Below, one piece after another: positions 158 to 27,138 of a stretch of 64,000 nt of DNA. Every line of letters begins with the position of its first letter. Position 1 is the stretch's first letter. The DNA lies in contig CAIRGJ010000036.1 of NCBI GenBank assembly GCA_903878085.1, positions 1 through 64,000 of the forward strand. The letters are read 5' to 3'. This DNA is from an uncultured Hyphomicrobiales bacterium (lineage in GTDB: Bacteria > Pseudomonadota > Alphaproteobacteria > Rhizobiales > Xanthobacteraceae). The notes beneath the pieces are model-generated. The model had not been told where the DNA came from and searched no databases. It saw only the letters and a program-made list of their open reading frames with translations. The translations under genes were made by a program, and so were the position numbers.

Positions 158-814
158 CTATTCGACGCCGCCTTTCGGCTTCTGGTCCGGCGTCACATCG
201 AGCACGCCGGCGCGGCCAGTGATTTTGACCGGCGGCCGGCAGTCCTTCATGCAGGGCTTGGCGTTCCAGAACGCCTTTTCGACTTTGTCGCGGTCGTCGT
301 CGTAAAAGCCGCCTTGGTTCGGCATTGTCACCTGGCCCCAGGTCGCCCGCGACAGCACGAATTTGTCGTCGACGATGTCGTTGAGATTGAGCACGTAAGC
401 GGTGACGGCATAGAGCTCGTCATTCGACAACGACTGCGCATCGCCGAACGGCATGGCGCGGCGGATATAGTCGAACACGCTTCCCAGATACGGGTAATAC
501 GAACCGACGGTCTTGACCGGATCGTGCGACGCCAGCGTGCCCTTGCCTTGCGCGAGTTGCGGCCAACGGCCGGCGCTTTCGCCGAACTCGCCATGACAGG
601 CCGCGCATTTCTCCAGATAGATTTTCTCGCCGGCCTTCACCGAGCCTTGGCCCGGCGGCGCGCCCTGCCCGTCCGGGCGCACGTCGATGTCCCAGCCGGC
701 GATCTGCCCGGACGTGGCCGGTTGGCCGATGTTGTAGGTGCGCGACTTGCTTTGCGCCAAGGCGGGCGCGGCAAGCAATGCAAGGAGAAGCGCGAGACTA
801 ACCGACCTCGACAT
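158..814 (-). CDS. soxD: SoxD, c-type cytochrome subunit of sulfane dehydrogenase SoxCD
   Basis: Partner of SoxC in the periplasmic sulfane dehydrogenase, which oxidises the outer sulfur atom carried on SoxY and passes electrons to the respiratory chain. The protein is 218 residues. It has a signal peptide (MSRSVSLALLLALLAAPALA), one haem c site CAACH at 70-74 and a likely Met ligand in RAMPFG near 120. A conserved SoxD-like C-terminal segment contains CMKDC. The start at 814 overlaps the end of soxC by 17 bases, which implies translational coupling. The longer open frame upstream to 1075 is a shadow of soxC. It has a single haem, whereas the Paracoccus SoxD is a longer two-haem protein. Confidence 0.93.
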   Translation of the reverse strand: MSRSVSLALLLALLAAPALAQSKSRTYNIGQPATSGQIAGWDIDVRPDGQGAPPGQGSVKAGEKIYLEKCAACHGEFGESAGRWPQLAQGKGTLASHDPVKTVGSYYPYLGSVFDYIRRAMPFGDAQSLSNDELYAVTAYVLNLNDIVDDKFVLSRATWGQVTMPNQGGFYDDDRDKVEKAFWNAKPCMKDCRPPVKITGRAGVLDVTPDQKPKGGVE

Positions 815-2063
815 TCTCGACCTCCCCGCTGGCCTTGAGCGCCCAGGTCTGGATGCCGTTGTTGTGATAGACCGAATTGACGCCGCGGATTTTGCGCAAG
901 TCGCCCTTCGTCGGCTGCACATAGCCGGTGTCGTCCATGGCGCGCGATTGCAGCAGCAGTTCTTCGCCGTTCCACTCGATCTCGGCATAGAAGCGCACGC
1001 AGGCGCGATCGAACACCGGACCGTCGATGCGCGCCGTGCGCCAGTTGCGGCCGCCGTCGAGCGAGACATCGACACGTTTGATCTTGCCGCGGCCGGACCA
1101 CGCCAATCCGGAGATGACCGTGAAGCCCTTGCGCTTGACCGGCGCCTGCGGCGACGGCGACGTGATCACGGACTTGGCGTCCATCTCGAAGGTGAATTGG
1201 CGCGCCTTGCCGTTCTCCATCAGGTCGGTGTATTTGCCGGTTTCCTCGCGGCTGTACCAAGGCCGATCGCCGACCTTGATGCGGCGCAGCCACTTCACCC
1301 ACATATTGCCTTGCCAGCCCGGCACCACGAGACGCACCGGATAGCCTTGTTCGGGGCGCAACATCTCGCCGTTCGAGCGGTAGGCGACCAGGCAATCGCC
1401 GAGCGCCTTGTGCATCGGCAACGAACGGTTCAACGCCGCGGCGTCGCCGCCCTCCGCCATGATCCAACTGGCGTTGGCTTTGAGCGCGGCCTGCTCCAGC
1501 AGCAGCTTCAGCGGCACGCCGGTGTATTGCACGCAATGCACCATGCCGTGGGTGTATTGACAGCCATTGAGCTGCGCGCCGCGCCACTCCATGCCGGAAT
1601 TGGCGGCGCATTCCAGGAAGTAGATGCGGTTGACGCGCGGCAGGCGTTTCAAATCCTCCAGCGTGAAGATCAGCGGCTTGTCGACCAGACCGTGGATCAT
1701 CAGCCGGTAATCGTTCGGGTCGATCTCGGCGATGCCACCGTGATGGCGCTCGAAGCACAGGCCGTTCGGCGTGATGATGCCGTCGAGTTCGTGCAGCGGC
1801 GTGAAACTGACCGATGACTCGCGGCTGGCGGTGAGCCACGGCACGTCGCGGCGGATGACGTCCTTCTCGAACTTCGATGGCGTGCCGTAAGGCCGCGCCA
1901 CGACGCCATCGCCAAGCTGCTTGGTCCAGCCGGCGACATTGGGCGGTAGGTTCTTGTCGTCGGCACGCGCCGGCCGCGTTGCAGCACCAAAGGCGAGACC
2001 GGCTGCGCCCGCCAGGAATTTGCGGCGCGAGGCCTGCTTTGGGTCGTCGCTCGTCTCGGACAT
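798..2063 (-). CDS. soxC: SoxC, molybdenum subunit of sulfane dehydrogenase
   Basis: Member of the sulfite oxidase fold. In SoxCD it oxidises SoxY-bound sulfane sulfur using a molybdopterin cofactor. The protein is 421 residues. The N-terminus has a twin-arginine export signal (SRRKFL, residues 12-17), as expected for a protein exported folded with its cofactor. The molybdenum-coordinating cysteine is in FLECAANSG (Cys152). The C-terminal half is the dimerisation domain typical of sulfite oxidases. It has its own 73-base upstream gap from soxB that contains an ATTC-N8-GAAT palindrome, so soxCD may have a separate regulated promoter. Confidence 0.95.
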   Translation of the reverse strand: MSETSDDPKQASRRKFLAGAAGLAFGAATRPARADDKNLPPNVAGWTKQLGDGVVARPYGTPSKFEKDVIRRDVPWLTASRESSVSFTPLHELDGIITPNGLCFERHHGGIAEIDPNDYRLMIHGLVDKPLIFTLEDLKRLPRVNRIYFLECAANSGMEWRGAQLNGCQYTHGMVHCVQYTGVPLKLLLEQAALKANASWIMAEGGDAAALNRSLPMHKALGDCLVAYRSNGEMLRPEQGYPVRLVVPGWQGNMWVKWLRRIKVGDRPWYSREETGKYTDLMENGKARQFTFEMDAKSVITSPSPQAPVKRKGFTVISGLAWSGRGKIKRVDVSLDGGRNWRTARIDGPVFDRACVRFYAEIEWNGEELLLQSRAMDDTGYVQPTKGDLRKIRGVNSVYHNNGIQTWALKASGEVENVEVG

Positions 2064-2101
2064 CGGCTGCTCCCGGCGGATCGCCTACCGAACGAATTAT
2101 C

Positions 2102-2121
2102 ACATTCTTTTTTATGAATGT
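2102..2121. promoter_or_regulatory. ATTC-N8-GAAT operator before soxC
   Basis: A perfect inverted repeat ACATTC-N8-GAATGT with an AT-rich centre lies in the soxB-soxC gap, 39 bases before the soxC start. The same core and spacing occur at 6088-6107 before soxY. As I recall, this is the type of site bound by Rhodobacter SqrR. It is the likely target of the ArsR regulator encoded at 11790-12134 (inference). Confidence 0.65.
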
Positions 2122-2136
2122 AACGGGTGGCAGCGA

Positions 2137-3825
2137 CTATGCCCCGGATATTTTCACGCTCGAATTTGGCTCGATACGCACCGTCTTCTCGGCGGCGACA
2201 TAGCGCTCGACCAGGTCCCAAACCGGCGGGCCCTCGGTGCCTTCGTTGACGGACGCCCAGCCGGCCACGGTGTATTCGCGCATGGGTTCGATCGGCTGGC
2301 CGGATTTCAGATGCGTCATCGCCGAAATACGCTGGCCGACCGGCTTGCCGACATCGATGGCGTAGCCAAGCCCACCGCAGCGCACCATGTCGCCGCCCTG
2401 CTGGTAGTAGGGATCGGGGTTGAACAGATTGTCGGCGACGTCTTCGAGAATATCTTTCAGCCGCGCGCCGGTCATCGGCAGCCGATAGACCTGCGGATAG
2501 GTGATGGCGGTGGCGTTGTGGATGTCTTCCATCGTGATCGGCGCACCGGGCAGCACGCTGGTGCCCCAGCGGAAGCCGGGCGACAGCACGATCTCGGCGT
2601 CGCGCTCCTTCAAGAGCGCCGCGCAGATCAGATCGTCGAAGGTGCCGTTGAAATTGCCGCGGCGGTACAGTAGCGAGTCCGCTTGGCCCACCACACGCGC
2701 CAGTTCCTTGGCGTAAGGCGCGCGCGCTTTGGTAATCGCCGCAGCCATCTCGGCGTCGGGCGCGATGGCGTCGGCGAACAGCGGGATCAGTTTGTAGCGG
2801 AAGCCCTTCACCGCGCCGTCTTGCACGTCGAGATCGAGCCTTGAGACGAATTTGCCGTGGCTGCCGGACGCGATCAGCAGCGTCTTGCCGACCGTCACCG
2901 CCTCGGGCAGCGCGTCGTGGGTATGGCTGGTGAGAATGACGTCGATGCCGGCGACGCGCGACGCCAGCTTGCGGTCGACGTCGAAGCCGTTATGCGACAG
3001 CAGCACCACGAGCTGCGCGCCGGCTTTGCGCGCCTTGTCGACTTGGGCACGCACCTCCTCCTCGCGGATGCCGAACGACCATTTCGGCATCAGCCAGCGC
3101 GGATTGGCGACCGGCGTATAGGGGAACGCCTGGCCGAGCACCGCGACCTTGACGCCGCCGCGCTCAAACATCTTCATCGGCTCGAAAGCCGGCTCGTTCC
3201 ATTCGGTGTCGCGGATGTTCAGCGCCAAGAACGGAAAGCCGAGGCCCTTGATCAATTCGTTGACCCGCGCCTCGCCATAGGTGAATTCCCAATGGCCGGT
3301 CATGGCGTCTGGCTTCAACAGCGCCATGCAGTCGACCATGTCCTGGCCTTTACTGCTGTTGGCGCCAAGCGAGCCCTGCCAAGTGTCGCCGCCATCGAGC
3401 AGCAGCACTTTGTCGCCGCGTTCGGCGCGCACCTTTTTAACGACGGTGGCCAGCCGGTCGAGACCACCGATCTTGCCGTAGCTTTTCGCCAGTGCGGCGA
3501 AATTCTCCGAGGTCATGGCGTAAGCCGACGCCGACTTTTCCGGAATGCCGAAGCGCTTGAGGAAATCGGTGCCGGTGAGATGCGGCGGCTGGCCCCTCGC
3601 CTCACCGACGCCAAGATTGACCGACGGTTCGCGGAAATAGACTGGCATCAGCTGGCCGTGGATGTCGGCAACGTGCAGCAGCGTGACGTTGCCGAGCGCG
3701 TCGAACTTCAACAGTTCGTCCTGCGTCAGACGTTGCTGGGCGAAAGCGCGCGTGAAGTTGGCGCCGCCCGCCGTCAGCGCGGCCGTCGCGGCGCTGACCT
3801 GAAGCATTTCGCGGCGGGTGATCAT
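2137..3825 (-). CDS. soxB: SoxB, thiosulfohydrolase
   Basis: Hydrolyses the terminal sulfonate from SoxY-bound S-thiosulfonate and releases sulfate. It is a dinuclear-metal enzyme of the 5'-nucleotidase/metallophosphatase superfamily. The protein is 562 residues, the usual SoxB length. It has a Tat-like signal (TRREMLQ, residues 3-9). Metal-site motifs are visible in order: DIHGQL near 54, DGGDTWQG near 145, GHWEFTYG (the SoxB variant of the GNHE motif) and SHTHD near 300. The nucleotidase-type C-terminal domain follows. It lies 29 bases after soxXA and belongs to the same transcription unit. Confidence 0.96.
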   Translation of the reverse strand: MITRREMLQVSAATAALTAGGANFTRAFAQQRLTQDELLKFDALGNVTLLHVADIHGQLMPVYFREPSVNLGVGEARGQPPHLTGTDFLKRFGIPEKSASAYAMTSENFAALAKSYGKIGGLDRLATVVKKVRAERGDKVLLLDGGDTWQGSLGANSSKGQDMVDCMALLKPDAMTGHWEFTYGEARVNELIKGLGFPFLALNIRDTEWNEPAFEPMKMFERGGVKVAVLGQAFPYTPVANPRWLMPKWSFGIREEEVRAQVDKARKAGAQLVVLLSHNGFDVDRKLASRVAGIDVILTSHTHDALPEAVTVGKTLLIASGSHGKFVSRLDLDVQDGAVKGFRYKLIPLFADAIAPDAEMAAAITKARAPYAKELARVVGQADSLLYRRGNFNGTFDDLICAALLKERDAEIVLSPGFRWGTSVLPGAPITMEDIHNATAITYPQVYRLPMTGARLKDILEDVADNLFNPDPYYQQGGDMVRCGGLGYAIDVGKPVGQRISAMTHLKSGQPIEPMREYTVAGWASVNEGTEGPPVWDLVERYVAAEKTVRIEPNSSVKISGA

Positions 3826-3854
3826 CGCGGCAGCCTATGTTTCGCGCGGAAGCG

Positions 3855-5123
3855 TTAGTGCCGAATGCCCGGCACGTTCAGCTTCAGCCCGTCGTTCTGC
3901 GAGGCCAGATAGATTTCGAGATCGCCGTATTCCTTGGCGTCGGGCGGCAGCTCGTCGTCGCGGATGTTGACCTGGCACCACTGGAAGCGCTGACGAATGT
4001 CCCAGATCGCCAACAGACTGGTGCGCCAGGTCGGGAAGTGATCGAACTGGCCCTTCGGCTCGCCGAGCCACTGGCCGCGGATCCAGTGATTGGCCGATTT
4101 GCCGTGGCAGTCGGTGCAGGCGAAGTTCAATTCGCCGACCTTGCGCTGGCTGAGCGCCTTGCCGCGCTCGATCGCGGCCTTGGAGTCCGCACTGCTGGTG
4201 TCGATCGCAATCGGCGTGCCATTGGCGAGATAGCGCAGGTAGACCGCCATGGCGCGGTTCTCGTCGGTCTCCATCAGCCAGACGTCGCCGGTGGTGGCCT
4301 TGGTGTGGCGCGTGACGAATTCCTCGACGCCGAGCACCTTGTTGAGCCGCGGCTCCCACTTGGGCATCGACGCCGCCCAGGTCTTGAAGGTCTCTTTCGG
4401 CTCGCTATGGCAGGTGTTGCAGGAGAAGCCGATCGAGCTTTTCTGCTTCCACAGTTCCTGCGCCTTATCGACGGCCCACATGCCGGGATTTTCAATCGGG
4501 TCGAGATTGTCGCGCTTCTCGACCGGAGCCGGACGCTTGTCCGGATTGTCGAGTTCGGTCTTGTACGGCGCCGGCGATTTCAACGTTTTCAGGAAGACGA
4601 CGATGTCGCCGATTTCCTGGTCGTTGAAAATCCCGTGCCCGCCCCAGGGCGGCATCACGGTGTCCGGATTGTAAACGCGGGCGTCGTAGACGTAATTGAA
4701 CAGCCACTCGTCCTCGCGGCCGGCATTGCCGAGTTCGGACAGGTCGGGACCGACATTGCCCGGCAAAGCCGCACCGCCGGCCGGACCCATGGTGTGACAC
4801 GCCAGGCACGAGCCGCCGCGGTTGCGGTCGGCAACCAGTTCGGCGCCCTTCTTGGCATCGCCATCGATTGGCGCGCTGAGCTTGCGCGGCGCGGTCGGCG
4901 GCGGCGGTGACGCCAGATTGCCCAGCGTGTTGAATTTGGCCTCGTCGCGCGCCGGCCATCCAGCATAGCGTTTCCACGGCCGCGCCGAGGCATCGTCCTT
5001 GGTCTCAAGCTGAGGGGCGCGTTTGGCGCTTTGCGCGCTGACGCCGTTCGTGAAAAGCAAAGCACTCGCGACGATTACTGCCGCGACGGCCAAGCCGCCC
5101 GCCACAATCCCTGAACGCGTCAT
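3855..5123 (-). CDS. soxXA: SoxX-SoxA fusion, tri-haem thiosulfate-oxidising cytochrome
   Basis: SoxXA couples thiosulfate oxidatively to the cysteine of SoxY. It is normally two polypeptides; here both are in one 422-residue frame. A signal anchor covers residues 1-30. The SoxX-like part (about 60-185) has CLACH at 106-110, the VGPDLSELG segment and a Met ligand in TVMPPWG near 157. A Pro/Lys linker (about 186-215) leads into a di-haem SoxA with CNTCH at 235-239 and CTDCH at 336-340. The active-site cysteine ligand is in RFQWC (383). The C-terminus ends in DLEIYLASQ. I chose the start at 5123 because it has a GGAGAA site; the longer frame to 5165 lacks one. There is no stop or frameshift between the halves. 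Confidence 0.93.
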   Translation of the reverse strand: MTRSGIVAGGLAVAAVIVASALLFTNGVSAQSAKRAPQLETKDDASARPWKRYAGWPARDEAKFNTLGNLASPPPPTAPRKLSAPIDGDAKKGAELVADRNRGGSCLACHTMGPAGGAALPGNVGPDLSELGNAGREDEWLFNYVYDARVYNPDTVMPPWGGHGIFNDQEIGDIVVFLKTLKSPAPYKTELDNPDKRPAPVEKRDNLDPIENPGMWAVDKAQELWKQKSSIGFSCNTCHSEPKETFKTWAASMPKWEPRLNKVLGVEEFVTRHTKATTGDVWLMETDENRAMAVYLRYLANGTPIAIDTSSADSKAAIERGKALSQRKVGELNFACTDCHGKSANHWIRGQWLGEPKGQFDHFPTWRTSLLAIWDIRQRFQWCQVNIRDDELPPDAKEYGDLEIYLASQNDGLKLNVPGIRH

Positions 5124-5183
5124 CCGGTTCTCCACGAACTCATATTGTCGCTGTCCGTGCCGCACGCGGGCGGCATGGCTTTG

Positions 5184-5507
5184 TCAGGCCACGGTGATTT
5201 GTTCTTCCGCGGTGGTGACGGTGCCGTCGTCGTCGGTCCACGAGAACTTGAAAGTGCCGCTCTCCTCCACCTTCGCCGTGAACTGCAGATAAGGATTGGC
5301 GGCGACCGCGGGCTCGATGGTCGCCGAGAACACCGGCTTGCCGTTGAACTCAGCCGTGAACTTGTTGATGATCTTGCGCGGGATGGTCTTGCCGTCTTTG
5401 TCCTTGCGCTGGCCCGACTCCATGATGTGCGGAATCAGCGTCTTGATCTCGATGATGTCGCCCTTCTTGGCTTCCTTGGGCAGTTTGAGCCGCGGCTTTT
5501 CCGCCAT
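5184..5507 (-). CDS. soxZ: SoxZ, sulfur carrier partner protein
   Basis: Forms the SoxYZ heterodimer that holds covalently bound sulfur intermediates in the periplasm. The protein is 107 residues, the normal size, and is an all-beta Ig-like domain. Family motifs are visible: PHIMESGQRKD, the FTAEFNGKPVF strand and the FSWTDDDG end. It has no export signal, which is usual because SoxZ is exported together with Tat-targeted SoxY. It lies 39 bases downstream of soxY and 60 bases upstream of soxXA on the same strand. Confidence 0.96.
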   Translation of the reverse strand: MAEKPRLKLPKEAKKGDIIEIKTLIPHIMESGQRKDKDGKTIPRKIINKFTAEFNGKPVFSATIEPAVAANPYLQFTAKVEESGTFKFSWTDDDGTVTTAEEQITVA

Positions 5508-5546
5508 TGTGGTCTCCTAACTCTGGAATTCAGGAATAACGGAAGA

Positions 5547-6002
5547 TCAGCCGCCGCAGCCGCCGATCGTTACCTTGACCTGCTTCTGGCCGATGTAAAA
5601 CTGACCGCCGCTGGTTTTGGCGACCACGACAATGTTCTGCGTGGCGGCGAGCCGGATGCGGGTCTGCGCTTCGGCCTTGCCCGACAGCGGTGTGAAGTGG
5701 AACGTGATCATGCCGGGATTAGGATTGCCCTCCGACACCACCAGCACGTCGCTGACATAGTTGTCGGCCGTCATCGGTGCATTGACCGACACGGTCAGCG
5801 GCACGGTGTTGCCATTTTCCGCGATTTCGGGAAGCTCGATGGAAATCTTGCCCTGCTCGGCAGTCTTGCCGCCGGTGAACTTGGCGACTTCGTCGGCGGC
5901 TTCCTTGGCGGCGGCGCGCGCGTCGCTGCCCCAGCCGACCACGGTGAGCGCCACGCCGCTGGCGCCGACGGCCAGCGCTGCGCGACGAGTAAGTTTCCGC
6001 AT
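5547..6002 (-). CDS. soxY: SoxY, sulfur carrier protein
   Basis: Carries the sulfur substrate on the single cysteine of its C-terminal swinging arm. The mature C-terminus is the diagnostic GGCGG. The protein is 151 residues from the start at 6002, chosen because GGGAGGA lies about 7 bases upstream. An alternative start at 6023 would add seven residues and has no comparable site. The N-terminus carries a twin-arginine signal (LTRRAALAVGAS). It is the first gene of the yZ-XA-B-C-D run, and an ATTC-N8-GAAT palindrome lies 85 bases upstream. Confidence 0.96.
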   Translation of the reverse strand: MRKLTRRAALAVGASGVALTVVGWGSDARAAAKEAADEVAKFTGGKTAEQGKISIELPEIAENGNTVPLTVSVNAPMTADNYVSDVLVVSEGNPNPGMITFHFTPLSGKAEAQTRIRLAATQNIVVVAKTSGGQFYIGQKQVKVTIGGCGG

Positions 6003-6087
6003 CGAGACGTCCTCCCGAATCAATGTCTTGGAGCCGATAGGCCCTGTCTCAGGCGAACATAGCCACGAGTGGTGGTGGGTTCAAATC

Positions 6088-6107
6088 ATATTCAATAAAA
6101 AGAATAT
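6088..6107. promoter_or_regulatory. ATTC-N8-GAAT operator before soxY
   Basis: A perfect inverted repeat ATATTC-N8-GAATAT lies between soxW and soxY, with an A-rich centre. It has the same core and spacing as the site before soxC (2102-2121) and the half-conserved site at 11228-11247. This is the best candidate operator for the sox structural genes. Confidence 0.7.
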
Positions 6108-6142
6108 ACGTGCTGTTGCACTGCACACTGACAGCATGAAAC

Positions 6143-6727
6143 TCAGCTCGGCAGCGCTTTGACGAAATCGCGGAAGCTTTTGGTCTCGTACGCCTTTTCG
6201 CGAACGAACCTGAACATCGCGAGGAAGTCGTCAGGCCTAAGATACCCCGGCGCGCGCGCCACTTCCCGCTTGGCGGGGGCCAGGCCTTTGAGCGGCGCGG
6301 CGCGTTCGGCAAAGAACTGGAACGTCGGCGTGAAACGTACGCCATATTTCGCCGCCAACTCCTTTTCGGACATTTCGGCGCCGTCGAAGTCGGTGACCTT
6401 GCGCGAACCGATGATGTTGAGTTGCAACACTTCGAAATTCGCCTTGATGTAGCCGGCAATGTCGGCTCTGGCGAAATTGACGAAGTGGGTTTCCTTGCAA
6501 TAGGGGCAGCCCTTGAGCTCCCACATGATAGCGAAGCGCTTGCCCTCCTTGGCCGCACCTTCCAGATCGTCGCCAAGATCCAGAAAACTTTCCAGAAACC
6601 AGGGCTGCTTGTAGAGCCCGTCGTCGGTCAGCACCGGCTCTTCGGCGCGCGCGCCGAATGCGGCCAGAGAAGCCGCCCCTGTCAGCAGGAATCGCCGGGT
6701 GAGTTTCATGCTCTTAGAAGTATCCAT
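6143..6727 (-). CDS. soxW: SoxW-like periplasmic thioredoxin
   Basis: Thioredoxin-fold protein of the SoxW type. It probably keeps the SoxY cysteine or other periplasmic Sox thiols reduced, using electrons relayed by the membrane CcdA/SoxV protein. The protein is 194 residues. It has a twin-arginine-like signal (KLTRRFLLTGAAS) and the redox motif CPYC at 74-77. The cis-proline region is RFTPTFQFF. A second possible start at 6709 would begin MKLTRR; neither start has a strong ribosome site. It is the most upstream minus-strand gene of the sox cluster and diverges from the gene at 6777. Confidence 0.85.
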   Translation of the reverse strand: MDTSKSMKLTRRFLLTGAASLAAFGARAEEPVLTDDGLYKQPWFLESFLDLGDDLEGAAKEGKRFAIMWELKGCPYCKETHFVNFARADIAGYIKANFEVLQLNIIGSRKVTDFDGAEMSEKELAAKYGVRFTPTFQFFAERAAPLKGLAPAKREVARAPGYLRPDDFLAMFRFVREKAYETKSFRDFVKALPS

Positions 6728-6776
6728 GGTCGGGGCCGAGGTCTATATGCTCGGCTTCAAACTTGGGTGACTGTCG

Positions 6777-7508
6777 ATGTGGACATGCTGGGCGCGCGGC
6801 GCAATCCTCGGTTTTGCTTTGTGGGCTGCCATTGTCCCGGCACAGGCTGGCGACCTCGCCGATTTTAATGCGCTGATGGAGGCCGTTGCCAGCCATAACC
6901 GGGTGGCGATCGGTTATCTGCGCACCGAGAACACCGACCTCGCCTCGCTCGAACTCGACCGCACCCGCGAGGCCTGGGGCAAATTGCTGCAACGCTTCGG
7001 CGGGCGGCGGCCGGACATGTTCGAGGGCAACCGGCTCTATCACAACTTCATGACCGGGGTCAGCGGACGTCTCGTCGCCGCGGCGCTGCTGCTCAATGCC
7101 GGACGGCCGGACGCGGCGATGGATTCACTCAACAGACTACGCGACGATGTCTCCGCCCTTCGCAAGGAAAGCGGCATTGTGGTGCTCGCCGACTGCGTGC
7201 GCGACGCCAATCAGGCGATGGATGCGCTGATGGCCTACAACGACCGCGCGCTCGATCTCGGCCAAGCCGATACGGCGACCGATGTTGCCGGCAAAGCGGC
7301 GGTCTACGGCTATGTGCTCAATCGCTGCGACGGCATCGCCGCCGAGCCGGTGCGCAGCGAGGGCGAGTTTCGCCGGCTGGTCGATGGCGCGCAAGCTAGC
7401 CTTGCGCTTATCCCCAAAGCCATCGCCACGCGCGATGCCGACTTGCTGCATCGCGTGCTGATCGAACTGCGCTCGTTCGATAATCTGCTGGCGTTCAGAT
7501 TTGGCTGA
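6777..7508 (+). CDS. exported protein of unknown function in the sox locus
   Basis: Function not recognised. The 243-residue product has a cleavable signal peptide (hydrophobic core ending AQAG near residue 25). The mature part appears largely helical, with many Leu/Ala heptad-like stretches. Two cysteines lie in VLADCVRDAN and LNRCDGIA, which could form a disulfide. There is no CXXCH, so it is not a c-type cytochrome despite its helical-bundle look. It is divergent from soxW with only 49 bases between the starts, so a shared promoter region is likely. A role in periplasmic sulfur chemistry is inference from location. Confidence 0.8.
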   Translation: MWTCWARGAILGFALWAAIVPAQAGDLADFNALMEAVASHNRVAIGYLRTENTDLASLELDRTREAWGKLLQRFGGRRPDMFEGNRLYHNFMTGVSGRLVAAALLLNAGRPDAAMDSLNRLRDDVSALRKESGIVVLADCVRDANQAMDALMAYNDRALDLGQADTATDVAGKAAVYGYVLNRCDGIAAEPVRSEGEFRRLVDGAQASLALIPKAIATRDADLLHRVLIELRSFDNLLAFRFG

Positions 7509-7628
7509 ACCCCGCAAGCGCCGGAATAACCGGCCCGTAAATTCGACGACGGAACGCCCAGGCGCCGCGATTTGGCCCCGAAGCAATGATCGTTTCGGAG
7601 TTGTCGTTGCCCCGCGCCGGAGGCCAAG

Positions 7629-7847
7629 ATGCGAACATCGTTGAAATTCGGAACCGCCGCCATTGCGATCGCGCTGCTGGCGCACACGCCTTTGGCAGAG
7701 GCCAAGGGCAAACGGCAACAGCAAGAACCCGGGACCACTGCGGAAAATGCCGACAAGAAGAAGGCGCTCGACGCGGATTATAAGAAAGCCTTGCAGAGCG
7801 TCCCGGACGTCACCGCCAAGCAGGACCCCTGGAAGACGATGCGCTGA
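7629..7847 (+). CDS. small exported hypothetical protein, 72 residues
   Basis: Function not recognised. Residues 1-25 form a signal peptide ending in the LAEAKG region. The mature part is short, highly charged (KGKRQQQ, DKKKALDADYKKAL) and ends DPWKTMR. Proteins with this DPWKTMR-like end are, as far as I recall, common among Hyphomicrobiales hypotheticals. It lies 120 bases after the gene at 6777 on the same strand. It ends exactly where the convergent glycosyltransferase gene ends, with no gap. Confidence 0.7.
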   Translation: MRTSLKFGTAAIAIALLAHTPLAEAKGKRQQQEPGTTAENADKKKALDADYKKALQSVPDVTAKQDPWKTMR

Positions 7848-10391
7848 TCAATCGATCGGTGGAACAGCGAAAGCCTGCGGCGCCTCGCCGCGCTGCCAGG
7901 TTTCCCACATCGTCGTGTAGGCCGCCTCGAGATGCCGGGCGAAACGCGCGGGATCGAACAGCGGCACGGTGTTGCGGTTCTGCAGCAGGCGCTGCTTGAG
8001 TTCGCCTAATTGCGCCGGATCGCGCGCCAGCTTCAGCGCCAGCGCCTCGTAATCAGCCATGCTGGACGTCGCGAGTTCGGGGACGCGCGCGGCGCGCAAC
8101 AGGCTGGCCGCAACCCGCCCGGCAAAGGTGTGGCCTTCGCAGGTCAGAAGCGGCAAGCCGACCCACAGCGCGTCGCTCGCCGTGGTGTGGGCGTTACAGG
8201 GCAGCGTATCGAGGAACAGATCGGCCAGCGCGTGGCGCGCCAGGTGCTCCTCCGGCAGCATGCGGTCGGCGAACACCAGCCGCGCGGGCTCGATGCCGCG
8301 CTTCTGGGCCTCAAGCCGCAGGTTGCGCATCGAGCCGTCATTGTCGCCGAGCAGCCACAGCACGCTGCCCTCGACTTGATGCAAGAGCCGCATCCAGACG
8401 TCGAACATCGCCGGCGTGATCTTCCAATTGTTGTTGAAGCTGCAGAACACGAAGCCGCGTTCCGGCAGTCCGGCGGCGCTACGCGTCGGCACGTTCGGCG
8501 ACACTTTGCGATGCGTGTCGTTGACCTGATAGCTGTCCGGCAACTGCACGATCTTTTCGGAAAAGAACGGCGCGTCTTCGAACGGCGCCACGGTCTTGTC
8601 GGCGATGATGTAGTCCATCGCCCGGCTGCCCATCGTGCCGGGGTAACCGAGATAGCTCACCTGGATCGGCGACGGCCGGTATTCGAGAATCTCTGTCCGC
8701 GCGTCCTGAGTGTAGCCTTTGAGGTCGACGGCAATATCGATTTGCAGATCGTGCATGATCTGGGCGACGAGGCGGTCGCTGCTGGTGCGCACGTCGTGGA
8801 AATGGCTGAACGCGGCCATCAGGCGGCGCCGCATCTCGGTCTGGTCGTCGGTGCTGAACGAAATGGCGTGGGTCTCGAAGCGCGATTTGTCGTGGCGCTC
8901 GAACAGCTCGGCCATCAGGAATGCCGTGGCATGGGTGCGGAAATCGGCCGACAGATAAGCCACGCGGATCTTATCGTTGCGCCACTTCTGCCCGGTCCAT
9001 AGCGGCTGCGGCGGCCGCGGAATGCGGTTCTCGATGTAATTTCTGGCGCACTGCAATTGCAACGCCGGATCGTCGCTATAGCCGAACAGCACGAAGGGCG
9101 AAAACGCCGACTGGCCGCTGGCAACATGCGCGGCGATGTCGGGCGCCAAACGCTCGCGCCGCTCCCAGTCGCACAGATTGATGGCGCAGGAGGCCGCACC
9201 GCTGAAAGCGTGATCGTGGGTCGGATCGAGCGCCAGCACGTGATCGAAGTCGGCCTGCGCTTCCTCGAAGCGCTTGAGCTCCTGAAGCGTCTGCCCGCGA
9301 TTGTTGAGCGCATCGACATAATCCGGACGGATCGCCAGCGCGCGGTCATAGCTCGGCAGCGCCTCGTCGAGCCGCTTGAGCTCGTGCAGGATCATGCCGC
9401 GGTTCGACAGCGCCTCGATCATATCAGGACGCAGTTCCAGCGCGCGATCGTAACTCGCCAGCGCGTCGGCAAAACGTTTCAGCTCGCGCAGCGCATTGCC
9501 GCGATTGGCGTAAGCTTCGGCAAGGTTCGGCCGCACCGCGATCGCCTGGTCGTAGGCCTTCAGCGCTTCGTCATAGCGCTTGAGTTTCTCCAGCACATGG
9601 CCGCGATTATAGGTGGCTTCGACATTGCCCGGCGCCAGCGTGAGCACCTTGTCATAGCTCGCCAGCGCCTCGTCGTTGCGGCCGAGATCGGCGAGCAGGA
9701 CGCCGCGGTTGACGTAGCAAGGCACCAGAGCCGGCTGTGCCGCCAGCGCGCGGTCGTAACAGCCCAGCGCTTCGTCGAACCGTCCCAATTGCTTGAAGGC
9801 ATTGCCGCGATTGTAGAGCGCGTCGGCGTAATCCGGCCGCACCGCGACCGCGCGGTCGAAAGCCTTCAACGCGTCGTCGTAACGTTTGAGCTTGAGCAGC
9901 GCGTTGCCGCGGTTGGATAGCGCCTCGGCATAATTCGGCGTGATCGCCAGCGCCTTGCTGTAGCTCTCCAAGGCCTCGTCGTCGCGGCCGAGCGTGGCCA
10001 GCACGACGCCGCGGTTGTTGTGCGCTTCGGCGAATTTCGATTTCAGCTTGATGGCCTGATCGAAGCTGTCGATGGCGTCCTGATGGCGGCTGAGCGCGTT
10101 GAGCACGATGCCGTAGTTGAGCCAGACCTGCGGCGTCGGGGCTCTCGCCTTCATCGCCGCGCCGATCAGCCGCAGCGCCTCGGCCAGTTGGCCCTGCGCC
10201 AGCTTGATCAGGCCCAACAGGTGCAGCGCGTCGAAATGGTCGGGCCGCACCGCCAAAATCGCGGCATAAAGCCGCTCCGCCTCAGCCAGCCGCCCGGCCT
10301 TATGCAGCTCCAGAGCCTGGGCGCAGGTTTGCGGAATATTGAGCGGCATACCGTTGGACGGATTGGCGGTCGGCAACAGCGATGGCGGCAT
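7848..10391 (-). CDS. TPR-repeat O-GlcNAc transferase (SPINDLY/OGT-like, GT41)
   Basis: Probable UDP-sugar-dependent glycosyltransferase that modifies Ser/Thr of proteins; the bacterial target is unknown. The protein is 847 residues. Residues about 15-430 hold eleven or twelve TPR units, recognisable by repeated NRGN-LxxLxRxxEAL-YDRAL patterns every 34 residues. The C-terminal GT41 domain (about 475-830) contains SADFRTHATA, GYTQDARTEI, SYLGYPGTMG, CSFNNNWKITP and the DTLPCNAHTTASDALW plus GHTFAGRVAASLL blocks. These give confidence in the family. The start at 10391 has a weak ribosome site, and Met15 (10349) is an alternative. It is inserted between the sox structural genes and ccdA/soxSR. 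Confidence 0.92.
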   Translation of the reverse strand: MPPSLLPTANPSNGMPLNIPQTCAQALELHKAGRLAEAERLYAAILAVRPDHFDALHLLGLIKLAQGQLAEALRLIGAAMKARAPTPQVWLNYGIVLNALSRHQDAIDSFDQAIKLKSKFAEAHNNRGVVLATLGRDDEALESYSKALAITPNYAEALSNRGNALLKLKRYDDALKAFDRAVAVRPDYADALYNRGNAFKQLGRFDEALGCYDRALAAQPALVPCYVNRGVLLADLGRNDEALASYDKVLTLAPGNVEATYNRGHVLEKLKRYDEALKAYDQAIAVRPNLAEAYANRGNALRELKRFADALASYDRALELRPDMIEALSNRGMILHELKRLDEALPSYDRALAIRPDYVDALNNRGQTLQELKRFEEAQADFDHVLALDPTHDHAFSGAASCAINLCDWERRERLAPDIAAHVASGQSAFSPFVLFGYSDDPALQLQCARNYIENRIPRPPQPLWTGQKWRNDKIRVAYLSADFRTHATAFLMAELFERHDKSRFETHAISFSTDDQTEMRRRLMAAFSHFHDVRTSSDRLVAQIMHDLQIDIAVDLKGYTQDARTEILEYRPSPIQVSYLGYPGTMGSRAMDYIIADKTVAPFEDAPFFSEKIVQLPDSYQVNDTHRKVSPNVPTRSAAGLPERGFVFCSFNNNWKITPAMFDVWMRLLHQVEGSVLWLLGDNDGSMRNLRLEAQKRGIEPARLVFADRMLPEEHLARHALADLFLDTLPCNAHTTASDALWVGLPLLTCEGHTFAGRVAASLLRAARVPELATSSMADYEALALKLARDPAQLGELKQRLLQNRNTVPLFDPARFARHLEAAYTTMWETWQRGEAPQAFAVPPID

Positions 10392-10457
10392 GTCGGACTG
10401 GTCCCCACCCGCTTGGTAGGAAATGCCCTCTGAGTCGTCCAGACGGCCGGATTTCGC

Positions 10458-11192
10458 CTAGCCAATGCGGCCCAAGGCCGGAAAGGCCTCGATCAGCCAG
10501 AAGGCGATGGCCGGCATCTGGCCGGTAAAGATCAGGATACCGACAGCGATCAGGAACAGGCCCATCGCCTTCTCGATCAGATCGAGCCGGGCGCGGACCC
10601 GCGCGCTCCAGCGCATGAAACCGGCGGCAAAAAACGCCGCGACCAGGAACGGCAACCCGATACCGAGCGAATAGACCAAAAGCAGCCGCGCACCCTCGGC
10701 GGCGCTGTCGGCGGCGCCGGCTATCAGCAGGATCGCGGTCAGCACCGGGCCAACGCAGGGGCTCCAGCCAAAGCCGAAGGCCAGGCCGACCGCATAGGCC
10801 CCGAGCATTCCCGCCGGCTTGTTGGCCATGCCAGGGCGCGCGGTGCGGTCGAGCAGCGGGATCCGGATCGCGTGGAGAAAATGCAGCCCCATCAGCACCA
10901 ACAGTACGCCCGCGATGTATCCCAAGATGCCGAGGTGGGCGCCGACCGCCTGCCCGATCCAGGACGCCGTGGCGCCGAGCGCGACGAAGACCGTGCTGAA
11001 GCCTGCGACAAAGCACAGCGCCACCAGCAACACGCGGACACGCTGTTGCGCGCCGCCCTGCTCGCGCAACTGCTCGACCGAGACCCCGCCCATATAGGCG
11101 AGATAGGGCGGCACCAGCGGCAGCACGCAGGGCGAGGCAAAAGACAGCAGGCCGGCGACGAAGGCCCCGCCGGCGGTGACGTCGAGACTCAT
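10458..11192 (-). CDS. ccdA: CcdA-family thiol-disulfide transporter (SoxV-like)
   Basis: Polytopic membrane protein that passes reducing equivalents from cytoplasmic thioredoxin to periplasmic thioredoxin-like proteins. In sox clusters it is called SoxV and supplies SoxW. The protein is 244 residues with six predicted membrane segments. The two redox cysteines lie in the conserved FASPCVLPL (about 22) and GWSPCVGP (about 146) motifs. It starts at 11192 after an AAGGA site. It is divergent from the soxS-like gene, and a degenerate ATTC-N8-GAAT site lies between them. A role in cytochrome c maturation is the alternative assignment. Confidence 0.9.
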   Translation of the reverse strand: MSLDVTAGGAFVAGLLSFASPCVLPLVPPYLAYMGGVSVEQLREQGGAQQRVRVLLVALCFVAGFSTVFVALGATASWIGQAVGAHLGILGYIAGVLLVLMGLHFLHAIRIPLLDRTARPGMANKPAGMLGAYAVGLAFGFGWSPCVGPVLTAILLIAGAADSAAEGARLLLVYSLGIGLPFLVAAFFAAGFMRWSARVRARLDLIEKAMGLFLIAVGILIFTGQMPAIAFWLIEAFPALGRIG

Positions 11193-11227
11193 TCTATTGC
11201 TTCCTTGCGGAGCGCCGCTTCGTCGAC

Positions 11228-11247
11228 ATATTCGACATTATTGATAT
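11228..11247. promoter_or_regulatory. degenerate ATTC-N8-GAAT site between ccdA and soxS
   Basis: ATATTC-N8-TGATAT lies in the 112-base divergent gap. The left arm is identical to the one before soxY and the spacing is the same, but the right arm matches only in its last four bases. It is probably a weaker operator for the same regulator. Confidence 0.45.
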
Positions 11248-11304
11248 ATTTGGCCGCAGGCCACCATCGCCGTGTATCCGGACAGACGAAAGAGAATAAA
11301 GTTG

Positions 11305-11694
11305 GTGTCAAAATCTTTTTCTCAAATGCTTTCTTCTCGCCTCGCCCTGATCGGCGCGATGTTTATAGCGTTGAGCCTAACCAGCGCCCGCGCCGCCGAA
11401 CTGGTGATGTTCGAGCAGGCCGGCTGCATCTGGTGTGAATCCTTCAATCGCGAGATCGCGCCCATCTATGGCAAGACCGACGAAGGCCGCCGCGCGCCGC
11501 TGCGGCGCGTCGATGTTGCCGGCCCAGTGCCGCAGGACCTGGCGTTCATCGACGCCGAAAAGCTGACGCCGCTGTTTGTGCTGGTTGATCGGGGCCGCGA
11601 AATCGGCCGCATCCGCGGCTATCCCGGCGAAGACAACTTCTGGGGCCTGCTCGGCGTCCTGATCAAGAAACTCGATGCGCCTGGAACCGGTTGA
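11305..11694 (+). CDS. soxS: SoxS-like exported thioredoxin-fold protein
   Basis: Small periplasmic thiol protein, as found beside soxR in other sox clusters, where SoxS is reported to help reactivate SoxYZ. The product is 129 residues from a GTG at 11305, which is preceded by an AGAGA site. An ATG at 11326 and a GTG at 11272 are alternatives. A signal peptide (SSRLALIGAMFIALS) ends at ARAAE. The redox motif CIWC follows near residue 41 in MFEQAGCIWCESF. The cis-proline is in LTPLFVLVD. The gene is followed by the soxR-like regulator 95 bases downstream. Confidence 0.8.
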   Translation: MSKSFSQMLSSRLALIGAMFIALSLTSARAAELVMFEQAGCIWCESFNREIAPIYGKTDEGRRAPLRRVDVAGPVPQDLAFIDAEKLTPLFVLVDRGREIGRIRGYPGEDNFWGLLGVLIKKLDAPGTG

Positions 11695-11789: not shown

Positions 11790-12134
11790 ATGGAATTGCA
11801 GCATCTCGACAGCCGCGACCACTCGCAAGAGCTTGATCGCATGTTGGGCAATGCGACGCGGGCGGCCGGTTTCCTCAAGGCGCTGGCGCATGAAAGCCGG
11901 CTGATGATCTTGTGCATTCTCGCCGAAGGCGAGAAGTCGGTGAGCGAGCTAGAGGACATCCTCAGCCTGCGGCAGCCGACAGTATCGCAGCAACTGGCGC
12001 GGCTGCGCGCCGACGGGCTGGTGTCAACGCGGCGCGACGGCAAGACGATCTATTACAATCTCGCCAGCGCCGAAGCCCGAGTCGTGATCGGCGCGATCTA
12101 CGACGTATTCTGCAAGAAAACCCGCAAGCGCTGA
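11790..12134 (+). CDS. soxR: SoxR/SqrR-type ArsR-family repressor
   Basis: Winged-helix ArsR-family regulator, 114 residues. The recognition-helix region is RQPTVSQQLARLRADGLV, followed by the wing RRDGKTIYYNLA. Cysteines at 42 (RLMILCILAEG) and 108 (YDVFCKK) are 66 residues apart, the pair used by SqrR/BigR proteins to sense persulfide through a polysulfide bridge. It has no metal-binding CXC motif of classical ArsR. By position it is the regulator of the sox cluster, acting on the ATTC-N8-GAAT sites (inference). It would be released when reactive sulfur species accumulate. Confidence 0.88.
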   Translation: MELQHLDSRDHSQELDRMLGNATRAAGFLKALAHESRLMILCILAEGEKSVSELEDILSLRQPTVSQQLARLRADGLVSTRRDGKTIYYNLASAEARVVIGAIYDVFCKKTRKR

Positions 12135-24473: not shown

Positions 24474-25349
24474 CTAAGACGCCAGCTTCACCGGCACCTT
24501 CAGATAATGCACGCCGTCGGCTTCGGCCGGCGGGAAATGGCCGGCGCGAATATTAACCTGGATCGACGGCAACAGCAGCAGCGGTGCTGCCAGCTTGGCA
24601 TCGCGCGCGGTGCGTATGGCGACGAACTCGTCCTCGCTGACGCCGTCGTGGACGTGGACGTTGCGCGCCCTCTCCTCGCCGATCGTGGTCTCCCAGGCGT
24701 AAGCCTCGCGGCCCGGCGCTTTGTAATCGTGGCACATGAACAGCCGCGTCTCGGCCGGTAGCGCGAGAATGCGCCGGATCGACCGGTACAGCGCGTGGGC
24801 GTCGCCGCCGGGAAAATCCGCGCGCGCCGTGCCGAAGTCGGGCATGAACATCGTGTCGCCGACAAACACCGCATCGCCGATCTTGTAGGTGACGCAGGCC
24901 GGCGTATGGCCGGGCGTGTAGACCACCTCACCGTCGAGATCGCCAATCTTGAAACGCTCGCCATCTTTGAACAGGTGGTCGAACTCCGAGCCGTCGCCCG
25001 ACACGTCGAGCGCGTTGAACACTGGCCGGAAGATGCGCTGCACGTCGCGGATGTGTTCGCCGATGCAGACCTTGGCGCCGGTCTTGAGCTTGATATAGGG
25101 CGCGCCCGACAGATGATCGGCGTGGGCGTGGGTTTCCAGCACCTGGCCGATCTTGACGCCGAGCTTGGCCGCCTCGGCGAGAATGTGGTCGGCGGATTTA
25201 ACGTTCGCCTTGCCGCTGCGGAAATCGTAATCGAGCACCGGGTCGATCACCGCGCCATCCATCGTCGCTCTGTCCCAGACCAGGTAGCTCACGGTGTTGG
25301 TCGGCTCGTCGAAAAACGCACGGATTTCGGGCTTATTGGCTACGGTCAT
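24474..25349 (-). CDS. blh: persulfide dioxygenase-like metallo-beta-lactamase protein (ETHE1/Blh)
   Basis: MBL-fold enzyme of the ETHE1/Blh type, which oxidises glutathione persulfide to sulfite with a single iron. The protein is 291 residues. The metal-binding motif is THAHADHLSG (His74-His79). The other ligands lie in TPGHTPAC and VGDTMFMPD, and the late His in MCHDY. It has no fused rhodanese, but a rhodanese lies nearby at 25820. It is divergent from bigR over a 91-base gap carrying tandem palindromes, the classic BigR-Blh arrangement. Confidence 0.92.
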   Translation of the reverse strand: MTVANKPEIRAFFDEPTNTVSYLVWDRATMDGAVIDPVLDYDFRSGKANVKSADHILAEAAKLGVKIGQVLETHAHADHLSGAPYIKLKTGAKVCIGEHIRDVQRIFRPVFNALDVSGDGSEFDHLFKDGERFKIGDLDGEVVYTPGHTPACVTYKIGDAVFVGDTMFMPDFGTARADFPGGDAHALYRSIRRILALPAETRLFMCHDYKAPGREAYAWETTIGEERARNVHVHDGVSEDEFVAIRTARDAKLAAPLLLLPSIQVNIRAGHFPPAEADGVHYLKVPVKLAS

Positions 25350-25395
25350 CGCGCGCTCCTTCGGCTCATCTGCGACATTGGACTTGACTTATATA

Positions 25396-25424
25396 TTAGC
25401 ATCACCTAATTTAGCAACATCTAA
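25396..25424. promoter_or_regulatory. tandem TTAG-N6-CTAA operators between blh and bigR
   Basis: Two adjacent perfect palindromes, TTAG-N6-CTAA at 25396-25409 and again at 25411-25424, are centred 15 bases apart in an AT-rich stretch. They lie 16 bases before the bigR start and 46 bases before the blh start, so one repressor could control both directions. This is the likely BigR binding site (inference from position and symmetry). Confidence 0.7.
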
Positions 25425-25440
25425 TTTATAGGACCGAAAA

Positions 25441-25779
25441 GTGACGAGCCAAACCGCCCGCCGCAAATCGCCTGCCGACGAAAAAGATATGGCGGCGTTC
25501 GAACGCAAGGCCGCGGCAGCGGCTGGGATGTTGAAGCTCCTGGCCAACGAGAACCGGCTGCTGATCCTGTGCCGGCTGGCGATGGCGCTGGAACTGTCGG
25601 TCAACGAGTTGGCCGAGGCGGTGGGCCTGAGCCAGTCGGCGCTGTCCCAGCATCTCGCCAAGATGCGTGACGAAGGCCTGCTGGCCACGCGGCGCGAGGC
25701 GCAGACGGTTTTTTACCGCATCGCCGATCCGAATGCGGCGCGCCTGCTGGCGCTGCTCAAAGATATTTATTGCCCGTGA
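25441..25779 (+). CDS. bigR: BigR-type ArsR-family persulfide-sensing repressor
   Basis: Winged-helix ArsR-family repressor, 112 residues, starting at a GTG after AGGA. The recognition region is [20 protein letters not shown] and the wing is [13 protein letters not shown]. Cysteines at 44 ([11 protein letters not shown]) and 111 (DIYCP, next to the C-terminus) form the sensor pair of BigR/SqrR proteins. It probably represses blh and its own operon and releases them on exposure to sulfide-derived persulfides. It is the second such sensor in the window besides the one at 11790. Confidence 0.92.
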
Positions 25780-25819
25780 CCCCACAAAACTCGCTGAGCA
25801 AAGCAAAGGATACAAGACC

Positions 25820-26350
25820 ATGAGCAACCTCAAGACCATCTCCCCTGAACGCGCGGCGGAGCTGATGCGCAGCGGCGCCGTGCTGGTCGATATTCGCGAA
25901 GCCGACGAGCATGCGCGCGGGCGCATCCCCGGCGCGCACCATCATGCCTTAAGCCGCGTTGATCAAAGCACGCCGATCCGTAACGGCGACGATGTCTTGA
26001 TCTTCCATTGCCGCTCCGGGGCGCGCACCAAAGGCAATGCCCCGCGCCTCGCCGCTGCAGCGCCCAAATGCGAAACTTATATCCTCGAAGGCGGTCTCGA
26101 CGCCTGGAAGAAGGCCGGTCTGCCCGTGACGCTCGACCGTAGCCAGCCGATCGACATCATGCGGCAAGTCCAGATCGCCGCGGGCAGCCTGGTGCTGCTC
26201 GGCGTCGTGCTGGGCGCGCTGGTGACGCCCGGCTTCTACGCGCTGTCCGGCTTCGTCGGGGCGGGACTGCTGTTTGCCGGCGCCAGCGGCTTCTGCGGCA
26301 TGGCGCGGCTGCTGGCCGTCATGCCGTGGAACCGCCGCGCGCACGCCTGA
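25820..26350 (+). CDS. membrane rhodanese (rhodanese plus DUF2892)
   Basis: Sulfurtransferase, 176 residues from the ATG at 25820. The rhodanese domain (about 5-115) has the active loop HCRSGART with Cys64, and [16 protein letters not shown] ahead of it. Two membrane helices follow (about 125-165), matching the DUF2892 arrangement. It would move sulfane sulfur between thiols at the inner membrane. It lies 40 bases after bigR and overlaps the next gene by one base (TGATG), so the three form an operon. Confidence 0.92.
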
Positions 26351-27138
26351 TGACGATCCTGCACGCTATATTGGCGATCGCCTCTGGCAGCCTGGTCGGC
26401 TTTACGCTGGGCTTGGTCGGCGGCAGCGGATCGATCATGGCCGTGCCCCTGCTCGTCTATGTCGTGGGCGTGTCGTCCCCGCATGTCGCCATTGGCACCA
26501 GCGCGATTGCGGTTGCCGTCAGTGCTGCGGCCAATCTGGCCGGGCATGCGCGCGCCAACACCGTGAAGTGGCCCTGCGCGACGGTGTTCGCCGTCTCCGG
26601 TATCGCGGGCGCGGCCGGCGGCGCGCAACTCGGCAAGATGGTGGATGGCGGCCGCTTGCTGACGCTGTTCGGCGTGCTGATGGTGGTGGTCGGAATTCTG
26701 ATGTTGCGGCCGCGCCAGTCCGGCGGCAACCCCGATGTCAGGCTGACGGTGGACAGCATGCCGCGGCTGCTGCCTCTTCTGGTCGGCGTCGGGCTTCTGG
26801 TCGGCGTACTATCCGGTTTTTTCGGCATTGGCGGCGGCTTCCTGATCGTGCCGGGGCTGATCGGCGCGACCACCATGCCACTGATCAATGCGATCGGCTC
26901 GTCGCTGGTGTCGGTCACGGCTTTCGGACTGACGACCGCCGCGAGCTACGCCTGGTCCGGCCTGATCGATTGGCCGCTGGCGGGGCTGTTTATTGTCGGC
27001 GGCGCGCTCGGCGGTTTGCTGGGGACCCGGCTGGCCCGCCATCTGGCCGGCTATAAACAAGCCCTCTCCCTCACCTTTTCCGGCATCGTGATCGCGGTCG
27101 GGCTCTACGTCATTGCCAAATCGCTGATGGGCTCCTGA
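26350..27138 (+). CDS. TauE/SafE-family sulfite exporter-like permease
   Basis: Inner-membrane permease, 262 residues from the ATG at 26350, with about eight predicted membrane segments. The two-fold repeat of the family shows in GFTLGLVGGSGSIMAVP near the N-terminus and GVLSGFFGIGGGFLIVPGL in the second half. Members export sulfite or other sulfur/organic anions. In this operon the product of persulfide dioxygenase (sulfite) is the obvious substrate (inference). Confidence 0.9.
   Translation: MTILHAILAIASGSLVGFTLGLVGGSGSIMAVPLLVYVVGVSSPHVAIGTSAIAVAVSAAANLAGHARANTVKWPCATVFAVSGIAGAAGGAQLGKMVDGGRLLTLFGVLMVVVGILMLRPRQSGGNPDVRLTVDSMPRLLPLLVGVGLLVGVLSGFFGIGGGFLIVPGLIGATTMPLINAIGSSLVSVTAFGLTTAASYAWSGLIDWPLAGLFIVGGALGGLLGTRLARHLAGYKQALSLTFSGIVIAVGLYVIAKSLMGS

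Follow-up and report, generated by a model that had tools for sequence, protein, structure and literature searches.

Candidate SoxR/SqrR-type operators before soxC, soxY and soxS in an alphaproteobacterial sox cluster

Three sites in the sox cluster of the window (the whole stretch of 64,000 nucleotides from contig CAIRGJ010000036.1 that was analysed here) are probably operators of a SoxR/SqrR-type repressor of the ArsR family, most likely the protein encoded at 11790–12134, which would be released by sulfane sulfur, and one of these sites would give soxCD a start of its own; we put the probability of this reading at about 0.78. It builds on the sites themselves, their uniqueness in the genome, their conservation in relatives, a cysteine pair in the regulator, and promoter-like elements that lie in register with the sites.

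Candidate operators in the sox cluster

The open reading frames of the window place soxY-soxZ-soxXA-soxB-soxC-soxD in this order on the minus strand; upstream of soxY come soxW and ccdA/soxV, and beyond them the pair soxS-soxR runs divergently. The genes and candidate operators are as follows:

158..859, minus strand: soxD, with a cytochrome c domain and no NCBIfam match; named by position, start chosen by us
798..2063, minus strand: soxC (TIGR04555)
2102..2121, minus strand: candidate operator ACATTC-N8-GAATGT in the soxB–soxC gap, a palindrome conserved in relatives
2137..3825, minus strand: soxB (TIGR04486)
3855..5165, minus strand: soxXA, a single open reading frame of 436 aa that contains a SoxX and a SoxA domain (TIGR04485 and TIGR04484)
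5184..5507, minus strand: soxZ (PF08770)
5547..6023, minus strand: soxY (TIGR04488); the start may be the ATG at 6002
6088..6107, minus strand: candidate operator ATATTC-N8-GAATAT upstream of soxY, in the soxW–soxY gap, a conserved palindrome
6143..6727, minus strand: soxW (Thioredoxin_2); gene name given by position
10458..11192, minus strand: ccdA/soxV (DsbD_TM)
11228..11247, plus strand: asymmetric operator-like site ATATTC-N8-TGATAT in the divergent soxS/ccdA (soxV) gap, a conserved variant
11272..11694, plus strand: soxS-like open reading frame, named by position and gene order, with no Pfam or NCBIfam match
11790..12134, plus strand: soxR, an ArsR-family regulator of SqrR/SoxR type with a conserved cysteine pair

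The first-pass annotation had placed perfect palindromes with a shared ATTC-N8-GAAT core before soxY and soxC, and both are present exactly there: on the minus strand the soxY site reads ATATTCTTTTTATTGAATAT and the soxC site reads ACATTCATAAAAAAGAATGT, each with exact 6-bp arms around an N8 spacer. The two lie about 4 kb apart, the soxC site 39–58 bases before the soxC ATG and 16–35 bases from the soxB stop, and the soxY site 86–105 bases before the likely soxY ATG. The third site, ATATTCGACATTATTGATAT, differs from the 8-base core in two bases; its presence had been noted correctly, and the word “degenerate” that had been attached to it is too weak, since the site is a conserved asymmetric variant (below). 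Both halves of the soxXA fusion have high-identity relatives in several loci of the genus, and other genus loci carry soxA and soxX in a different, divergent arrangement.

Frequency of the motif in the genome

The window contains three bare ATTC-N8-GAAT cores where 1.1 would be expected, a count that is not significant by itself because 9 of 100 shuffles reach three. The third match (37558–37573) lies inside a 708-aa open reading frame that is presumably parE-like. In the genome-wide scan that had been proposed as a check of the regulon, the 4.4-Mb genome has 42 bare matches; 39 of them lie beyond the window, 25 in called genes and 14 not, according to a crude gene caller written for the purpose. 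Fully A+T spacers (8/8) are found in three of the 42, namely the two sox sites and a site before a TonB-receptor gene. The extended motif AYATTC-N8-GAATRT, which was defined after the sites were known, has exactly two matches in the whole genome, and these are the sox sites in the soxB–soxC and soxW–soxY gaps. When up to one mismatch is allowed there are 23 places, 21 of them beyond the sox sites, and the reversed control gives one; the four of these 21 that were read with their surroundings have no evident link to sulfur: one precedes a TonB-receptor gene, one precedes a gene with a Cache domain, and two are inside called open reading frames.

That the sites are merely chance palindromes in A+T-rich gaps would agree with the unremarkable frequency of the bare core in the window, but this explanation is ruled out by the restriction of the extended motif to the sox sites in this genome and by its conservation in the same gaps of relatives, where the counts are far above chance (below), and we give it hardly any credence.

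Conservation of the sites in relatives

Two samples of relatives were surveyed. The first consists of 40 genomes of the genus, the window's own included, 33 of which have soxC at E ≤ 1e-120; the second consists of 119 distinct sox loci, the window included, with two duplicates dropped and only identical soxB stretches removed for redundancy, and its genomes may overlap. Across the 40 genus genomes the extended motif has 81 matches by per-genome counts, against three for the control; 75 of these are listed, and the other six (in G199, G207 and G214) were left out of both listing and classification. The two sox gaps account for 42 of the 75 listed matches (24 in soxB–soxC and 18 in soxW–soxY), while four precede an SqrR-like gene, seven are near fumC and 22 lie elsewhere. 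The fumC-linked matches are 58–117 bases 3' of that gene (L165 2555, L166 2502, L167 2540, L196 3081, L201 1775, L207 3051 and L209 2333), and in three of them the spacer is fully or nearly palindromic.

In the locus sample soxC directly follows soxB in 88 of the 119 loci, those without soxC within 700 bases of soxB being excluded; in one locus outside this set (L118) soxC is preceded, at a distance of 145 bases, by an extended site. The perfect core is present in 21 of the 88 soxB–soxC gaps, the window included, compared with a mean of 0.06 and a largest value of 1 in shuffles, and the first scoring skipped gaps shorter than 40 bases (7 of 88 for soxB–soxC, 3 of 94 for soxS). Controls with spacers of 6, 7, 9 or 10 bases gave 0 of 88, and the inverted control GAAT-N8-ATTC gave 2 of 88. 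Seven more gaps carry ATGC-N8-GCAT, in which both half-sites are changed together, and the soxB–soxC gap has no ATTC- or ATGC-type operator in 60 of the 88 loci. When mapped onto a quickly made SoxB tree, the operator of this gap is scattered, with at least 11 changes, seven of them forced by starred branches; within the window's own 21-row SoxB clade 15 rows have the operator, three do not, and three were not counted.

Boxes recur at different sox gaps. The perfect core is found upstream of soxY or soxX in 21 of 117 regions, where spacers of 6 and 10 give one each. The soxS-region variant, sought as AYATNC-N8-TGATA (a pattern chosen post hoc from the window site), is present in 15 of 94 loci, the window included, against a shuffle mean of 0.015, and all 15 belong to the window's family sample or to Bradyrhizobium. 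A box lies in the soxG–soxW gap of six of the eight Bradyrhizobium-clade loci and of two others, and five Rhodobacterales-type loci (L088, L095, L096, L100 and L106) have ATTC-N8-GAAT between soxA and soxB. In four family loci (L134, L135, L137 and L142) it lies in the soxS–soxR gap, immediately before soxR, a position that makes autoregulation possible; before soxR in the window there is no perfect site, the best having three mismatches.

Promoter-like elements

The following promoter-like elements lie at the three sites:

2096..2124, minus strand: GTTACA-N17-GATAAT, with the soxC operator mostly inside its spacer; a consensus match only
6056..6084, minus strand: TTGAAC-N17-TATGTT, shortly after the soxY operator; a by-eye reading
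11223..11250, plus strand: soxS promoter-like TCGACA-N16-TATATT, enclosing the asymmetric site; one found, shuffle mean 0.3

A separate control point for soxCD within the operon had been suggested on first pass, and the palindrome in the soxB–soxC gap, the TT and GATA flanks shared among relatives and the sigma70-like match in the window all speak for it. The scan of this gap found one promoter-like site against a shuffle mean of 0.1. When the 24 soxB–soxC gaps of the genus that contain the motif are aligned on the operator, the consensus has tT before it and GATA after it (exceptions include L182 and L186); these gaps were picked by the motif, and the flanks lie outside the search pattern. 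Similarly, in 18 soxW–soxY gaps of the genus the operator is closely followed by a pair that resembles TTGAcc-N17-tatgGt, and the promoter scan of the soxW–soxY region of the window found no promoter-like site. No terminator was found by scan in the soxB–soxC or soxW–soxY regions, and the soxS region has one terminator-like match (11222–11236; shuffle mean 1.0).

The arrangement is not the same at the two palindromes: the operator is inside the promoter-like spacer at soxC and upstream of the -35-like element at soxY, so the strength of repression may differ between them. This difference tells against the possibility that the soxC site is simply a second, equal promoter that keeps the distal genes expressed with no separate control, to which the common operator type at soxC and soxY and the distance between the two sites lend weight, and for which we judge the odds to be slightly short of even.

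The regulator and its paralogues

The protein encoded at 11790–12134 had been called an ArsR-family regulator with a cysteine pair, and this description holds. It matches PF01022 (ArsR-type HTH) with 54.4 bits (cutoff 22), it has one cysteine in LMILCIL and one in DVFCKK, and both align with cysteines in its best PDB matches, 13ct (E 9e-31) and 6o8k–6o8o (2e-30), which we take to be R. capsulatus SqrR; it also matches 3pqj and 3cuo. The best NCBIfam model is the BigR equivalog NF040642, at 110.7 against a cutoff of 155. By these comparisons the protein fits the SqrR/SoxR/BigR subfamily of ArsR, both cysteines included. In the window soxR adjoins soxS and ccdA. A regulator at ≥40% is present in 84 of the 119 loci, many of which are cut short, and in 67 of these 84 soxS lies on the same strand and no more than 400 bases away. 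Both cysteines are found in 78 of the 84 regulators compared (window included), five being gapped at the second position and one lacking both.

Among loci with a counted soxB–soxC gap, helix RQPTV is always accompanied by an ATTC-type site (12 of 12), and every ATGC-type site goes with helix RQPAV (seven of seven). Because RQPAV or RQAAV also occurs with ATTC-type sites (four cases) and the helix groups are largely clades, we dropped this covariation as proof of regulator–operator pairing.

Four other ArsR matches are present in the genome, the nearest being C12:2361 (51% identity) and, within the window, 25441 (42%). The match in the window is a BigR-like gene (25441–25779) in a second locus of persulfide-sensor type (24474–27138), with a divergent metallo-beta-lactamase-fold gene beside it and rhodanese/YgaP-TM and TauE genes downstream, and its gap by eye has TTAGCA/CTAATTT repeats instead of ATTC-N8-GAAT. 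In four genus genomes (L161–L164) the extended box stands just upstream of an SqrR-like gene that is divergent from a Pyr_redox_2 flavoprotein gene, presumably sulfide:quinone reductase-like, and cross-regulation is therefore possible. Given this box and the BigR/SqrR-like paralogues, the sequence does not fix which protein reads the sox sites. The box could be common to more than one SqrR/BigR-type sensor, that is, to SoxR and the C12 paralogue, the BigR-like protein or both. We consider this rather unlikely; the paralogues, the box before the SqrR-like gene of relatives and the target that SoxR and sHdrR share in H. denitrificans (PMC10451225) would fit it, but the BigR-like gap of the window contains no sox-type box (two mismatches at best) and contig C12 has no match to the bare core.

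Proposed mechanism and its meaning

The preferred reading is a single regulon under SoxR. Such a regulon had been proposed on first pass, and it is supported and of a known kind, since the motif is identical to the one deduced for SqrR in the literature and the ArsR protein encoded next to the sites matches the subfamily; the motif also recurs in the sox gaps of many Alphaproteobacteria. We infer binding, repression, release by sulfane sulfur and use of PsoxC, the binding and the persulfide response by analogy with the family. Without sulfane sulfur, the reduced dimer would occupy each site and block the overlapping or adjoining promoter, namely PsoxY (soxYZ-XA-B), PsoxC (soxCD) and the divergent soxS/soxV region, which would also serve soxR and thus provide autoregulation. 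Per- or polysulfide would then bridge the two cysteines, and the repressor would leave the DNA. Through the soxB–soxC site soxCD would gain a start that answers to the same signal, added to read-through from PsoxY. The joint change of both half-sites in seven loci and the box immediately before soxR in four family loci also favour this reading; against it stand the 60 soxB–soxC gaps with neither type of operator, the BigR/SqrR-like paralogues, the imperfect best site before soxR in the window, the two matches of the inverted control, the 22 genus matches elsewhere, and the YgaV and conflicting SoxR data cited below.

The motif should be usable to map SoxR-type regulation across Alphaproteobacteria, where the internal gap that contains such a box varies among sox clusters. 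The soxCD box is placed at the step in which complete and truncated Sox systems differ; this contrast, usually described as gene presence or absence, may here be regulated. It is conceivable, though we think it improbable, that the cell uses the soxCD operator as a regulated branch point, with SoxCD set apart from SoxYZ-XA-B under a common sulfane-sulfur repressor, to switch between truncated and complete Sox, and that the scattered box positions reflect independent rewirings. If so, sulfane sulfur would in the truncated state stay on SoxY and then move on to the cytoplasm or be retained as inducer, SoxCD would consume the very signal that induces it, and the boxes in soxB–soxC here, in soxA–soxB of the five Rhodobacterales-type loci and in soxG–soxW of the Bradyrhizobium clade would each be such a rewiring.

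Comparison with known systems

ATTC-N8-GAAT is the deduced R. capsulatus SqrR site, and E. coli YgaV is described as binding a katG promoter without it and as having a similar box in its own promoter (both PMC9774250). SoxR is likewise already published as a sulfane-sulfur-responsive sox repressor; in H. denitrificans its binding to the soxA–soxY gap is lost after polysulfide, and its two cysteines are bridged (PMC10451225). Published results on SoxR obtained at different expression levels are said to disagree. The soxYZBCD genes of Starkeya novella are written as a single block, within a cluster that comprises at least four transcriptional units (PMC3797975). No operator or promoter before soxCD was found in the accessible parts of the open-licence literature, a body that includes PMC10451225, PMC12423496, PMC9774250, PMC11582611, PMC10318464, PMC3797975 and PMC2864759 and excludes most subscription papers and the original SoxR binding papers. 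What is possibly new is modest, a conserved and recurrent candidate operator before soxCD, and is limited to that operator since the motif and the SoxR regulation have already been published. The soxS–soxV and soxW–soxX regions are reportedly SoxR targets in the SoxR binding papers, which may also cover a soxB–soxC site.

The SoxR proteins of Hyphomicrobium denitrificans, Pseudaminobacter salicylatoxidans and Paracoccus are likewise of ArsR type with a cysteine pair, and theirs bind sox promoter–operator regions. H. denitrificans differs in having a truncated Sox system without SoxCD (PMC10451225), and because SoxCD is missing there the question of a soxB–soxC operator cannot arise in it. Xylella BigR and E. 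coli YgaV, to which the PDB matches 3pqj and 3cuo relate, belong to the same ArsR subfamily but are associated with different operons. The site deduced for R. capsulatus SqrR is the same as the core in the window, and SqrR is presumably the protein in the best PDB matches of the window regulator. It differs in that it is described as controlling the genes of sulfide-dependent photosynthesis rather than a sox operon (PMC10451225).
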